Shown: positions 1-22,256 of the stretch, piece by piece
How the letters are laid out: every line of letters begins with the position of its first letter
Numbering within the stretch: the stretch's first letter is position 1
Source of the DNA: Lachnospiraceae bacterium
Lineage (GTDB): Bacteria; Bacillota; Clostridia; Lachnospirales; Lachnospiraceae
Reading direction: 5' to 3'
Length of the DNA stretch: 43,868 nucleotides
NCBI GenBank assembly: GCA_017556805.1
Contig: JAFYMC010000006.1
Location: forward strand, 1 to 43,868
The notes under the pieces: model-generated
What the model was told of the DNA's origin: nothing
Seen by the model: only the letters and a program-made list of their open reading frames with translations
Database searches by the model: none
Program-made: the position numbers and the translations under genes

Positions 1-93
1 CCACAACGTCCGGGGGACGTTGGTCCTGGACCGACCGAGGCGAAGCCGAGACCTTGAACCTCAGGTTTACCGTCTCCACATGCGGGTGACAGG
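1..93 (-). repeat. Left-edge copy (unit A) of the 95-bp tRNA-Leu-associated repeat
   Basis: The first 67 bases are identical to 96-162, giving a tandem repeat with a 95-bp period; this copy is cut by the window edge. It holds a 53-base remnant of the insert (1-53) ending in a GGACCG...GAGACC box (28-53), then TTGAACCT, a decayed inverted repeat (48-76, three mismatches relative to unit B), and at 81-93 a 13-base exact copy of the tRNA-Leu 3' end (TGCGGGTGACAGG, as at 225-237). It therefore carries part of tRNA-Leu but is not a functional tRNA gene. Its purpose is unknown. Confidence 0.8.
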
Positions 94-171
94 GTCCACA
101 ACGTCCGGGGGACGTTGGTCCTGGACCGACCGAGGCGAAGCCGAGACCTTGAACCTCAGGTTCAAGGTCTC
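94..171 (-). repeat. Unit B: 55-nt hairpin/box insert within a tRNA-Leu T-loop copy
   Basis: Bases 94-148 form a 55-nt insert between a copy of the tRNA-Leu 3' end (81-93) and the T-loop sequence TTGAACCT (149-156). In the real tRNA gene only two bases separate these blocks. The insert has a hairpin (CAACGTC 99-105 pairing with GACGTTG 111-117), then a 26-nt box starting GGACCG and ending GAGACC (123-148). The box runs into a perfect inverted repeat, 14 bp on each side of one base (143-171). The same architecture and length recur at 21236-21290 behind tRNA-Met. Confidence 0.8.
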
Positions 172-176
172 CACTC

Positions 177-224
177 GCATTAAGAAGAGGACCCTGGGCA
201 TCTTGCCCAAGGTCCTCTTCTTAA

Positions 225-227
<3 letters not shown>
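177..227 (-). terminator. Long hairpin immediately 3' of tRNA-Leu
   Basis: A 17-bp perfect stem (177-193 with 211-227) plus, after one mismatch, six more pairs and a 3-base loop. The outer three pairs overlap the acceptor end of tRNA-Leu. The descending arm on the transcribed strand is pyrimidine-rich (CCTCTTCTTAA), so it probably ends the seven-tRNA transcript, although there is no clean U-tract after the stem. Confidence 0.6.
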
Positions 228-304
<77 letters not shown>

Positions 305-6834: not shown

Positions 6835-9800
6835 CTACTCCTTTATAGGCGCAAACAAACGATTCATGGTATACTCCATGCGATAATAGTTTTCCAACAT
6901 ATCCATGGTAGTCTTTTCATCCTTCATATCCTGCGCCGTCAAAATCAAATTAATCTGTCCGTACTTTGTGGTTTCATCGTGCATCTTCACCGCATCCAGC
7001 TGACGATAAAAGCTCTCGGTAATCCGGGCCTCTCCGTTCCGTTCCTCGGTAATATAATACTGCAACACTTCCTCGTAAAACAGAATAAACTCTTTCACAA
7101 AGATACCGTATCCCACATGACGCATCTCTTCTTTGACAAAGCGCTCTTCTCCCGCACCGTCAAACAAATAAGAAATGGATACTCTGCTCTCCGGGTCGGT
7201 CTGGTACTCCACATACAGTTTATCTGCCATACACGGCGGTAGCTCCGCCTTTCCTTCAAAACCGGAAAAGAACGGGAAAATCATATCCTTTTCCGCAAAC
7301 ATCCGCATACTCTGCTCCGCAAAGCGCACCTGCTCCGGGGTAAGCGCGTCCTGCTCGGAAAAATACTTTAACACCGCCAGACGGCAAATCTCACTGTCTT
7401 CCTCCGCCTCTTCGTATAACAGTCCCAACAATTCCTCCGGCATATCGCATCCCAAAATAAAACAGCGATAGGCCGACTGGGAAAGGTACGCCCGTATCAG
7501 CTTCGGATTGCCCTTCTTTTTCCGGTAGCTTAAAAATACATGATATGCCTCCGGCACATAACTACCGGCAAATAAAATCTGTCCCAGTAACCGCTCTTCG
7601 ATGTGCTCGGTCGGCAATTGGAATTCCGACGCACACTGCCAGATACGATACATTTCATCAGTGGTTCCGTAAAAATAATTCTCGAGATACTGCACAATGC
7701 TTTCGTCATACTTTCCTTCAAAAAACACCTGCCTGCATAAAAGTAACAGCATGTCGTTTTGCTCTCCGCCGCATTGCAACAGCATTCTCTCGCACAACCT
7801 CATCAGCCGCTTGGAGGCCACGCCCTCCATCCCGTACTTCTTTAACGCATCCAACGCCAAATCATACCGACCCCGCACAATCATAAGCTCTATCATACGG
7901 TTCCGTTCTTCCTTGTCCGGATAGTCCAGATTCAGTTTTGAAAGATATCCGTCCAACAGCTCTCCCTGGTAATTATCGTAACAGTACCGGATTAAGGAAA
8001 GGATTTCCCCTTGACGGAACTCTTCCAGCAAACCGTCCACATGTACAATCCGCTTGCTCAGTTCCGTAGCGTCTACTTCTACCGTACGGAAATTATGTAC
8101 CTTTTCCAAAAGATTTAACAATAAAATGCGGTTTTCTCCCGCCAGTTCGTAACAACGATAAATCAGTTCTTCCTCATGCAGCAATCTGGAAATATGACAG
8201 TCGGTGCCCGGCAAATAACGATTGCCTTCCCCATCCGTCAATACCAGCTTGGCATCCTCCGTATACATGCAGACAACCGCAGCACCGTTCGTTAACGGAA
8301 CCACGCACTCCTGCTCTTCCTCCTTGTGCAATACGGAAACCGCCACCATTTCCTTGTTATCACACTCCACGTAATAGCTGAAAATCAATTTCGGAAGGAC
8401 TGCCGCCAGTTCTCCGTCCAACAAAGAGCTGCGAAGCACTTCGCCGTAAACCGTGGCCAGGTTCTTATCAATCCGGCCGCTCTTTATACTGTTCACCGCG
8501 TACTGCTCCATCCGCTTTAAGTAGGTCCGGTAAAAAGAGCTTAAAGACTCCTGATTCCGCACAATATACGCATACAAAAACGCGCAATACGGCTCCTCCA
8601 GTTCGTTTCCGTAAATGAAATAAAGCAATACAGACTGGTCGATCTTTGTCTGAGAGCCGCACTCACAGGTATAAATGTAATACTCCTGCAACAACGGAAT
8701 CCGCAGTTGCAAGGAACATGCCTCCGCAAAATACGTATGATATTTCTTATCCCGGATTCCCTGCATAATCAAAAGGGAGCACAACGCCTGTAAGGTATCC
8801 CGCTGCCCGTACTGCTTATACGCAAGACAAAGACAACAAAGCAACAACCGGGAACATTCTTTACTCTGCAATGCCAGAATAGAAAATTGCAGTACCGTCT
8901 CCTTCTGCAACATTCCGCTCTTTAATCCGAACCGCAACACCTGCAGTTCATAAGCGCCTAACGTCCGCAACAGTGCCGGTTCCTCATTCCACAGCATCGC
9001 TGTTTCAAAATACAACAACGGGCTCCGGTTTCCTCTGCGATACCGGTCTTCCAGTTCCTCCAAAAGCATGGCTCTGCCGTTCTCGCTGCGCTTATCCGTA
9101 TACAGCCGGAACCACAAAAGCAAACCGCTTTCTTTATAGCGCTCGGATAACAGCTTAATCTGCGCCGCGTATGCCTTCACATCCTCCGCGTTCTTTTGCC
9201 GCATAGCTTCCAGATACTGCATAGCTCCCAAAAGCTCCGCGTCGGCGCCTTCCCGCTCCAAACGCTGTTTTACCTGTACAAATTCGCTCTCCGCAAACTT
9301 TTCCTTCTTCCCTATCAGTGCCAGATACGCACGATACATCTGATAGGTCAATTCCTTTTTCCGACGCGCACCGTCGTCAAATATCCCGTCCTGCAGGCGA
9401 AGAAGTAACAATTCCACCAGACTTTCCGCCTCCGCAATATAGCTGCCCGCCTTTATCTTTCCGAGACGAAAATCAAAATAGCGCTGAAACAGCTTGCATT
9501 CCGTCTCGTGAAAAGCTCGACGCTTCCGTTCCTCTTCCCTTGCGGTACGCTCGCAAATACATTCCACATCAATGCGAATCTTCTGCCGCGGTGTTTTTAG
9601 CACAATCCGGCCGAAGTGATTCCCTTCTGTCAGCGTAGCTCCGTCCACCGCCACCTCCAGGGCGCAACGATTGCCGTTGAAGCTCTCGGATAACAGCTTC
9701 TTGGAAGATACCATAAAGAACTCTCCCTCGGTCTCCACTGTCACATCCGTATGTCCCCAGGTATCTCTGGACACCGTAATCCGCTCCATCACCGCCTTAT

Positions 9801-14707: not shown

Positions 14708-14780
14708 TATTTCCTTGTTAAATAGTCGTTAAGGTTTTCTTGTCCGCAGAAATTATCTGCGGAATTCTTTCTATTTTCAC

Positions 14781-14822
14781 AAAAAAGAGCCTTTGCCGCA
14801 AACTACGACACAAGACTCTTTT
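14781..14822 (-). terminator. Terminator after the 246-residue membrane protein gene
   Basis: On the reverse strand AAAAGAGTC pairs imperfectly with GGCTCTTTTTT across a 20-base interior, ending in a T-run. It lies directly after the stop codon at 14827. Confidence 0.65.
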
Positions 14823-21073: not shown

Positions 21074-21147
21074 GGCGGAATAGCTCAGTTGGCTAGAGCA
21101 CACGGTTCATACCCGTGGTGTCGAGGGTTCAAATCCCCCTTCCGCTA
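21074..21147 (+). tRNA. tRNA-Met (anticodon CAT), elongator type
   Basis: A 74-nt cloverleaf: acceptor GGCGGAA/TTCCGCT, anticodon stem CACGG/CCGTG around TTCATAC (anticodon CAT), T-arm GAGGGTTCAAATCCCC and discriminator A. The acceptor begins with a G-U pair rather than the unpaired end of initiator tRNA, so elongator Met is favoured. A CAT anticodon could also be a lysidine-type Ile tRNA, but the body looks like Met. Its 3' third is partly duplicated at 21222-21305. Confidence 0.9.
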
Positions 21148-21190
21148 CTATCGCAAAAGGGAATCCAAAAGGATTCCCTTTTTGTGATAG
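21148..21190 (+). terminator. Terminator of the tRNA-Val/Met operon
   Basis: A stem of about 19 bp (21148-21166 with 21171-21190) with an AAAA loop and a TTTTT stretch within the descending arm, starting right after the tRNA-Met discriminator base. Confidence 0.85.
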
Positions 21191-21214
21191 TAATGAAAAA
21201 GAAACTGAACACGA

Positions 21215-21305
21215 GACACCACGTGGTGTCGAGGGGCGCTGGAGGTCCGGTGGACCTCCGTTTAGCGCGGACCGTAGCGGAGCGGAGACCAAATCCCCCT
21301 TCCGC
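21215..21305 (+). repeat. Rearranged partial tRNA-Met copy with a 55-nt hairpin/box insert
   Basis: A perfect 16-bp palindrome (GACACCACGTGGTGTC, 21215-21230) leads into CGTGGTGTCGAGGG (21222-21235), identical to tRNA-Met 21114-21127. A 55-nt insert (21236-21290) follows, then AAATCCCCCTTCCGC (21291-21305), identical to tRNA-Met 21131-21145. The insert thus replaces TTC of the T-loop. It consists of a nested hairpin (GCGCT and GGAGGTCC arms, 21236-21268) and a box that starts GGACCG and ends GAGACC (21269-21290). The layout and length match the insert at 94-148 near tRNA-Leu. Confidence 0.82.
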
Positions 21306-21317
21306 GGTCCTCACAAT

Positions 21318-22256
21318 TTACGGTTTTTTCGCAACCTCCTTCAAACGCTCCACAAACATCTCGAAACGCTCGTCCGTGCGCAAAACATCAAATTCTTCCT
21401 CCAATAGCCAATTAAGCGTCATCTGCGAAGTGTTTCCTACCGCTTCCGGAATAAATCCTCCGTCGGAGTAACCGCGAAGAACAGGGGAAGTATGCTTTCC
21501 TTCAAAATCATAGGTATCCATATGAATTGCAAAATCAGCACATTTTTCCAACCACTTCCATGCATTTTCCAAATCATTGTTTCGAAGAAAGAGTCTCCCC
21601 ATGTGCATGCAAGCCATCCACCCCACCTGAGCTACATTCTGATAGTCTTTCTCAGGAAACAGAAGTTCCAGCAGGTCTACCTGAAGCTTATGGAGCCTCA
21701 TTCTGTCTTCCGGCGCGAAAAACATGGTACCGTCATCATGACGATGAACTCCGGCAGCACCGATGGCCGAAACCAATTGATAGATTAAATAGTGAATAAA
21801 CTCTTGCTTTTTGGCAAAATCTGCATCGCCTTCCCAAATCCAAAGCATACAACTTTCATAAGAGATCATCGATTTCGGCATTTCTTCCGCAACTCTTAAC
21901 ATCTCTTCTTTTTTTCCCGCATAATCGTATGCGTAAACAAGTGTCTGCGTTGCTTCGTAGCGAGTTGTGCTATCGGTGCACTCCGCAAGCACCCGGTTAC
22001 AAAGGGAAAACACCTCCTCGTACTCTTTCACACCCTTTCGGGAGTAAACATTTACCAAGGCATTGGCAAGCTTCTGCATAATCTGATAGGATCTTGGAAA
22101 TTTTCCCAGTGCTTCCCGTAAAATCTCCACCTCTTTTTCAAAATTTCCTTCCCAATCCGCCTTGTGAGCCTCTTCCAAATAACTCTTGATACGCTCCTCA
22201 TTCTTTTCCACATCGATTCCCAGCAGAACATCCGAGGAAACATCAAAGATAATATA
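21318..22256 (-). pseudogene. TPR effector part of an XRE-type regulator, HTH domain lost
   Basis: The readable part from a GTG at 22211 codes 297 residues of helical repeats (SYLEEAHKADWEGNFEKEVEILREAL, later WKWLEKCADFAIHM) typical of the C-terminal region of Lachnospiraceae XRE-family regulators. Reading further upstream in frame gives ...FDVSSDVLLGID before a TGA at 22257-22259. That is the end of an HTH_XRE domain, whose DNA-binding helices are gone. The break lies next to the HD-GYP terminator hairpin. No good ribosome site precedes the GTG. A functional stand-alone TPR protein is possible but less likely than a 5'-truncated remnant. Confidence 0.7.

Follow-up and report, generated by a model that had tools for sequence, protein, structure and literature searches.

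A split tRNA-Met copy

The stretch of DNA analysed here, which we call the window, comprises 43,868 nucleotides of contig JAFYMC010000006.1 from a Lachnospiraceae bacterium. About halfway along it, an intact tRNA-Met gene is followed by a terminator-like hairpin and then by two partial copies of its own 3' half, the first inverted and diverged, the second direct and exact. The direct copy is split by an insert, which we call element E, and related units lie beside a tRNA-Leu gene at the very start of the window. The features are as follows; bit scores refer to R1, a covariance model described in the next section.

1-53, + strand: element E, Leu copy 2, lacking its 5' part because the contig starts at base 1 (R1, 64.6 bits)
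93-148, + strand: element E, Leu copy 1, antisense to tRNA-Leu, within a partial tRNA-Leu copy (R1, 76.3 bits)
225-304, - strand: intact tRNA-Leu (TAG), from tRNA gene calling and Rfam
21074-21148, + strand: intact tRNA-Met (CAT), from tRNA gene calling and Rfam
21155-21182, + strand: palindromic hairpin resembling a terminator, after the intact tRNA-Met and before the split copy (12-nt arms, 100%)
21206-21223, - strand: inverted, diverged copy of the tRNA-Met 3' half, palindromic together with the direct copy (18 nt, 83% complementary)
21222-21235, + strand: 5' piece of the partial tRNA-Met copy (variable loop and T-stem), left flank of E (identical to 21114-21127; 14 nt, 100%)
21235-21290, + strand: element E, Met copy (R1, 76.5 bits; 56 positions including 1 flank base)
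21236-21240/21264-21268, + strand: outer stem of the Met copy (R1 match)
21241-21248/21252-21259, + strand: inner stem of the Met copy (R1 match)
21269-21290, + strand: box of the Met copy, with the mini-hairpin at 21277-21283 (R1 match)
21290-21305, + strand: 3' piece of the partial tRNA-Met copy, running from the T-loop (3' side) to the acceptor and flanking E on the right (identical to 21130-21145; 16 nt, 100%)

A preliminary description of this DNA had reported a tRNA-Met copy interrupted in its T-loop by 55 nt, and repeat comparison, with both flanks at 100%, bears this out: 55 inserted nucleotides split the partial copy (21222-21305), and 2-4 nt of the T-loop are absent, depending on where the boundary is drawn. 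The two repeated tRNA pieces had been given as 14 and 15 bases; the first length is right, and the second is 16. The exact box pattern has a single match in the window, at 21269-21290, and none in 100 shuffles, so the Met insert is not a chance resemblance. The Leu array consists of two E units 95 nt apart, in the opposite orientation relative to the tRNA. The layout that the Met and Leu inserts had been said to share is indeed common to both when each is read on the + strand; with respect to the tRNAs, the Leu insert is antisense and the Met insert sense. Their hairpins had been called unrelated, which they are not: both fit one covariance model, keep a loop-proximal core (TCC-RGK-GGA), and differ by compensatory substitutions in the stems.

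The inverted tRNA-Met copy at 21206-21223 is absent from the preliminary description. Inverted and then direct partial copies of a tRNA 3' half, together palindromic, are found behind several tRNA terminators (window 1-232 and 21150-21235; L298 around 6900-7060; L212 around 1980-2090), and the palindrome of the tRNA-Leu terminator extends into the end of the tRNA itself, with 29-nt arms matching at 93%. An inverted downstream copy scoring at least 28 accompanies 8 of 40 tRNAs that have E downstream versus 8 of 130 that have not, two of the latter (L061, L071) being E loci under a second identifier. Inverted copies are thus a feature of some cases and not a general one. Elsewhere in the window, ARAGORN calls a tRNA-His at 14737-14813 that has no Rfam match and is possibly false.

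A dispersed family of elements

The insert appears to be a single copy of a very small mobile DNA hairpin that is common among the gut bacteria of Lachnospiraceae. DNA searches find dispersed relatives on several contigs of its own genome, and R1, built from an alignment of 13 copies, matches 22 stretches there and 132 across the genus, with all ten genomes represented (E-value at most 0.01). At E-values of at most 1e-8, R1 matches 61 of 150 sampled genomes of the family, as judged by record names, and has no match in the other 89. Across the order, 13 of the 196 sampled genomes have a match; 11 belong to the same family and 2 lie outside it (f8 with 1 copy, f17 with 5). G105 has 5 copies, G106 has 8, G003 has 14, and G006, the genus genome with the most, has 31. 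These counts are possibly low, as at most 150 candidates were scored per genus genome, and fewer, under stricter filters, for the family and order.

An earlier pattern search gave up to 11 matches, versus at most one per strand and genome for a reversed-pattern control, and a pattern scan of named genomes, which may omit the window's own record, found at least 117 stretches. Among the 80 matches listed, most carry the name Lachnospiraceae or that of a genus of the family, including isolates of Butyrivibrio, Roseburia porci, Coprococcus catus, Oribacterium and Parablautia intestinalis; a few carry other labels ('Sarcina sp. DSM 11001', 'Eubacterium sp.', a soil Bacillota MAG). The plasmid sequences searched yielded no match, the phage sequences one record (79% of the query covered), and viral contigs two stretches. 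The profile scan that the preliminary description proposed has therefore turned up many further copies, and its guess of a small non-autonomous mobile element gains support from these, from the empty counterparts, and from the preference for tRNA sequence described below.

Anatomy of the element

E is about 55 nt long and consists of a two-part hairpin of 14 bp followed by a conserved box that contains a mini-hairpin. Among 108 copies from 88 chosen sources, aligned by fitting to R1, 97.2% of pair cells hold standard pairs, both sides have changed in 13 of the 16 pairs, and the covariation score is reached by none of 500 shuffles. A 13-row MAFFT alignment agrees (94.7% paired; 0/500 shuffles). 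In the same 108 copies the box is nearly fixed, with each base of GACCG at 0.99-1.00 and an AGA close to the 3' end, and the mini-hairpin within it has two covarying pairs (GC-GRA-GC) around a G-R-A loop (G 0.99, A 1.00). DNA mini-hairpins with GNA loops and at least two G-C pairs are described, in passages of PMC4686876, as extraordinarily stable, d(GCGAAGC) melting at 78 °C. The mini-hairpin of E is of this type, which fits a single-stranded DNA form of the element. Folded as DNA, the two window copies have z-scores of -2.56 (Met) and -2.24.

E has no terminal inverted repeats: its ends, GG.. and ..AGAC, are not mutually inverted. A GTAG in the Met box had been likened to the motifs used by REP/HUH transposases. 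The comparison is not supported, since the T of this motif is present in 8% of the 108 copies, and the motif is internal instead of terminal. There are also relatives of E in which a longer box hairpin (GAGCCGG..-type) replaces the mini-hairpin, often in the same arrays as E (L029:502-556; L026 around 801-846; L251:1693-1747).

Sites of insertion

The 280 distinct copies of E were collapsed to 149 independent contexts, those with fewer than 54 nt of E being dropped. Upstream of E, G stands at -1 in 0.67 of the contexts, and A or G at -2 in 0.90. The element itself begins with GG in about 0.97 and ends with AGA in about 0.97, followed by C in 0.74. Empty counterparts, a check that the preliminary description had called for, were sought within the collected sequence, allowing at most 2 mismatches per 14-nt flank, and were found for 32 of the 149 contexts and not for the remaining 117; they are paralogous or come from other genomes. 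E replaces 1-5 nt of the empty site, the commonest loss being 2 nt in 12 contexts, 4 nt in 10, 3 nt in 8, and 1 and 5 nt in one each. The commonest lost string starts with G in 30 of the 32, part of which may reflect shared letters, because E itself starts with GG. None of the 32 shows a target duplication.

E is found in tRNA-derived sequence, in other copies of E, in Clostridiales-1-like and other palindromic repeats, and in some protein genes. Within E it enters the loop (GA being lost between GTG and CGTC), the box, or the junction left by an earlier E; a simple pattern rule finds a nested-type junction in 29 of the 280 copies, an uncontrolled count. In Clostridiales-1-like repeats it lies just 3' of a helix, and further hosts are CCTTCCCC-type repeats, in Butyrivibrio and others, and TGTCATTCTGAGC-type repeats. 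At six places in one genome that are otherwise unrelated (L201-L206, G077), both E and the flank on its right are identical, and in five of them the left flank is similar as well, being of TTGTCATTCTGAGCGAA type. E thus seems also to be carried along within some other dispersed repeat. T-box leaders just under the gathering score occur beside Clostridiales-1-like repeats at L030:1-216 and L035:751-1001.

In some protein genes an open frame runs through E: a PolC-like gene (L229), a QueA-like gene (L253) and a gene for a DUF6056 protein (L258), as judged at the sequence level with Pfam. E lies inside the Queuosine_synth (QueA) match in L253, ahead of the matched domains in L229, and just upstream of the best-matched stretch in L258; other copies are at gene ends. 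In these three loci and in L323, E is in frame inside a palindromic repeat of CCTTCCCC type, and long open frames continue through this repeat as well.

The flanks of E fold more stably (mean -24.9 kcal/mol) than random windows of the same loci (-15.0) or shuffles (-19.9). The junction is enclosed by pairs in 0.75 of cases, versus 0.73 and 0.77 in the controls. There being no excess, we do not claim hairpin loops as a targeting signal, and the idea that such loops are targeted as such was set aside.

tRNA sequence as a target

Both flanks match one and the same tRNA in 24 of the 149 contexts, versus 2 of 790 control junctions. The tRNAs so split are Gly (8), Leu (5), Arg (4), Pro (3), Met (2), Lys (1) and Ser (1), and E is antisense in 18 of the 24 and sense in 6. 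A stricter test, with longer ungapped flanks, gives 9 of 149 versus 3 of 546, in a control from which tRNA genes themselves were not excluded. By copies, 51 of 277 are of the tRNA type, one of which (tRNA-Cys) resembles a chance match, and an intact tRNA lies within 400 nt of E in 43 contexts, which is an uncontrolled count. Particular sites recur. In the sense orientation these are AGG-GT-TC in the tRNA-Met T-loop and GAG-GT-CG in the tRNA-Pro variable loop; antisense copies in Gly, Leu and Arg share a TC, read as GA along the strand of E, on the 3' side of the T-loop. The preliminary description anticipated copies at other tRNAs, and these exist: besides Met and Leu, the contexts counted above include Gly, Arg, Pro, Lys and Ser. 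It was too narrow in holding that E targets T-loops: tRNA-Pro and tRNA-Val are hit in the variable loop, and 125 of the 149 contexts failed the tRNA test.

It had also proposed that a tRNA 3' end is regenerated by the insert. This is not supported: the window, L324 and L298 each have a separate intact gene, and E occupies surplus tRNA copies. L324 has a complete tRNA-Met with E in it, between a tRNA-Val and an intact tRNA-Met; its aligned flanks are 97% identical to the intact twin, and GT has been replaced. In L298, a tRNA-Pro-like gene with two copies of E stands before an intact tRNA-Pro. With E in redundant copies, the idea of 3'-end regeneration is not needed.

Two loci have split genes without an intact twin nearby, L223 (Pro CGG), where ARAGORN calls a 94-nt tRNA-Pro that overlaps E, and L232 (Val GAC). 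Pro(TGG) is present and intact Pro(CGG) absent among the 39 tRNA genes (of 43 RF00005 matches) of G174, and Val(TAC) is present and intact Val(GAC) absent among the 32 (of 36) of G175. An intron-like role for E was considered for these two genes. Their T-arms look degenerate by eye, and decay of dispensable isoacceptors fits best, though not decisively.

How E might move

E, then, is dispersed, with conserved ends, empty counterparts, nested copies, one polarity with respect to a short target motif, and a constrained structure. It inserts mostly after G and replaces a few nucleotides, most often two and usually G-initial, with no target duplication. On balance we incline to regard it as a non-autonomous interspersed mobile element of Lachnospiraceae, about 55 nt long, that an enzyme supplied in trans copies or moves in the form of folded single-stranded DNA. 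The enzyme and the single-stranded form are what we infer; the latter is favored by the DNA-type mini-hairpin, the absence of target duplication, and the DNA folding. The putative enzyme would recognize the hairpin and box of the folded strand, and the 5' side of E would be joined after RG and its 3' AGAC end to a base a few nucleotides beyond. Genes for tRNAs and palindromes would be favored because of their G-rich target motifs and their folding when single-stranded. In the window, E would have entered a redundant partial copy of tRNA-Met, inverted and direct, that follows the intact gene. The split copy would be decaying, with the function presumably left to the intact gene.

Which enzyme might this be? 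The preliminary description advised a search for a co-occurring transposase or integrase, and none of the candidates accompanies E throughout: several E-bearing genomes lack Y1, several lack reverse transcriptase, several lack IS110, and two lack PDDEXK_2. Y1_Tnp (PF01797) has a match in only 2 of the 10 genus genomes and 17 of 41 relatives, and none in G006, the genus genome richest in E. Of 13 E-bearing genomes, RVT_1 has a match in 10, above the cut-off in 9; G003, G105 and G106 have none, and the genome of the window has a match below the cut-off. IS110 exceeds the cut-off in only 5 of the 13, and both enzymes were rejected as universal mobilizers. PDDEXK_2, considered because E in L226 lies near the end of such a gene, occurs in 8 of the 10 genus genomes and 21 of the 41 relatives, and was rejected as it has no match in G001 and G002, both of which have E. 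The genus genomes are 72-97% complete and most genomes are incomplete or fragmented, so the absence of an enzyme is not proof. Neighboring frames of 90 aa or more, up to 2.5 kb from E at 207 loci (1969 in all), were clustered; one example from each of the 25 largest clusters was viewed by eye, and no recombinase was recognized.

Other explanations deserve attention. E might be a SINE-like retroelement, a small structured RNA inserted by a reverse transcriptase through target-primed reverse transcription. This process can leave small target deletions, eukaryotic R2 having a 2-bp target loss; E likewise shows a small target loss without duplication, and its conserved, covarying fold is RNA-like. 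The gaps in the distribution of RVT_1 speak against it, as do the two orientations at tRNA sites and the intact 5' ends: target-primed copies are often 5'-truncated, whereas 5' GG is kept almost throughout, in contexts from which those with E below 54 nt were dropped. We consider a SINE-like origin unlikely.

Still less probable is a REP-type element mobilized by a Y1 (RAYT/IS200-like) transposase. E is a small hairpin repeat without target duplication, as such an element would be, and one copy, the sole such case noticed, abuts the end of a Y1_Tnp (IS200-like) gene (L318:7078-7614). It lacks a GTAG tag, however, and Y1_Tnp is without a match in 8 of the 10 genus genomes, which also leaves the REP/HUH link suggested earlier without support. 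We give a slender chance, too, to spread without any enzyme, by template switching during replication or by gene conversion between palindromes. The stable folding of the flanks would suit this, and so would the inverted and direct tRNA copies around E in the window, but the ends conserved over 149 contexts, the repeated target rule, and the clean insertions in tRNA-Met and tRNA-Pro genes would not.

That E is not selfish but an RNA module whose function selection preserves, at tRNA loci and elsewhere, agrees with its strong structural conservation; its scattered and nested positions, its insertions in tRNA and protein genes, and its lack of a match, at the threshold applied, in 89 of the 150 family genomes make this very improbable. 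Remnants of the attL/attR ends of one integrative element would account for partial tRNA copies downstream of intact tRNA genes, and can be dismissed: several different tRNAs are split, in both orientations and in two loops, many sites are not tRNA at all, the empty counterparts found differ by E plus a few nucleotides, and L324 contradicts the idea outright.

Relation to known repeats

Rfam 15 has no family reaching the gathering score at the positions of E examined, in the window and in 10 loci; matches with E-values up to 1, at those 10 loci and at 21150-21330 of the window, are far below it. Nothing recognized as describing E was found in the open-licence literature, at the level of titles and abstracts. 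To this extent the earlier remark that no named family has such a layout stands. With its dispersed copies and empty sites, E is a small interspersed mobile repeat, and we place it among the small palindromic mobile repeats as a family of its own, new and unusual in both target and anatomy.

The Rickettsia palindromic elements (RPE), small structured repeats described in passages of PMC2229807, measure 105-146 bp and have 12-bp terminal inverted repeats. They lie between genes, are fused in frame into protein genes, and occur in the genes of two RNAs (tmRNA and RNase P RNA). E resembles them in having open frames through protein genes, at the sequence level (L229, L253), and copies in tRNA genes (L324, L298). 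It differs in length, about 55 nt, in its unlike ends, in its box and mini-hairpin, and in lying often in tRNA sequence. Bacterial MITEs such as Correia, ERIC, RUP and YPAL/RU-2 are, like E, non-autonomous and both intergenic and intragenic, and the targets of YPAL span or adjoin dyad symmetry, according to the same passages; most MITEs have terminal inverted repeats and target duplications, neither of which is seen in E. The GTAG- and CGTC-tagged REPs, to go by parts of PMC3733652, are short palindromic repeats with many copies, as E is, and a RAYT cleaves single-stranded REP DNA; E has no terminal GTAG tag and is seldom accompanied by Y1 in its genus (2 of 10 genomes). The text of PMC3733652 makes no mention of 'Firmicutes', 'Clostridi' or 'Lachnospir'.

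The Clostridiales-1 RNA of Rfam (RF01699) is also a structured repeat of Clostridiales, and matches to it below the gathering score often host E. Its consensus has no counterpart of E, which by our reading sits at the 3' side of one helix. The small dispersed repeats of cyanobacteria are very small mobile repeats as well, reported in structural-RNA genes; they are shorter than E and are not known to be related to it in sequence.

What E may represent

It is conceivable, although we rather doubt it, that E is the founder of a new minimal class of mobile DNA: a folded single strand of 55 nt with an exceptionally stable DNA mini-hairpin, served by a putative enzyme that is neither Y1, nor reverse transcriptase, nor IS110, inserting at RG/GW sites with the loss of about 2 nt, preferring tRNA genes, and fragmenting redundant ones throughout the family.

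Lachnospiraceae are among the common bacteria of gut and rumen, and E is a family-wide mobile repeat that lies within their tRNA genes or next to them. It accounts for partial tRNA copies that annotation software may mistake for genes, as at L223. With its ends, fold, target preference and empty counterparts known, E offers a clean case for how the smallest mobile DNAs move.
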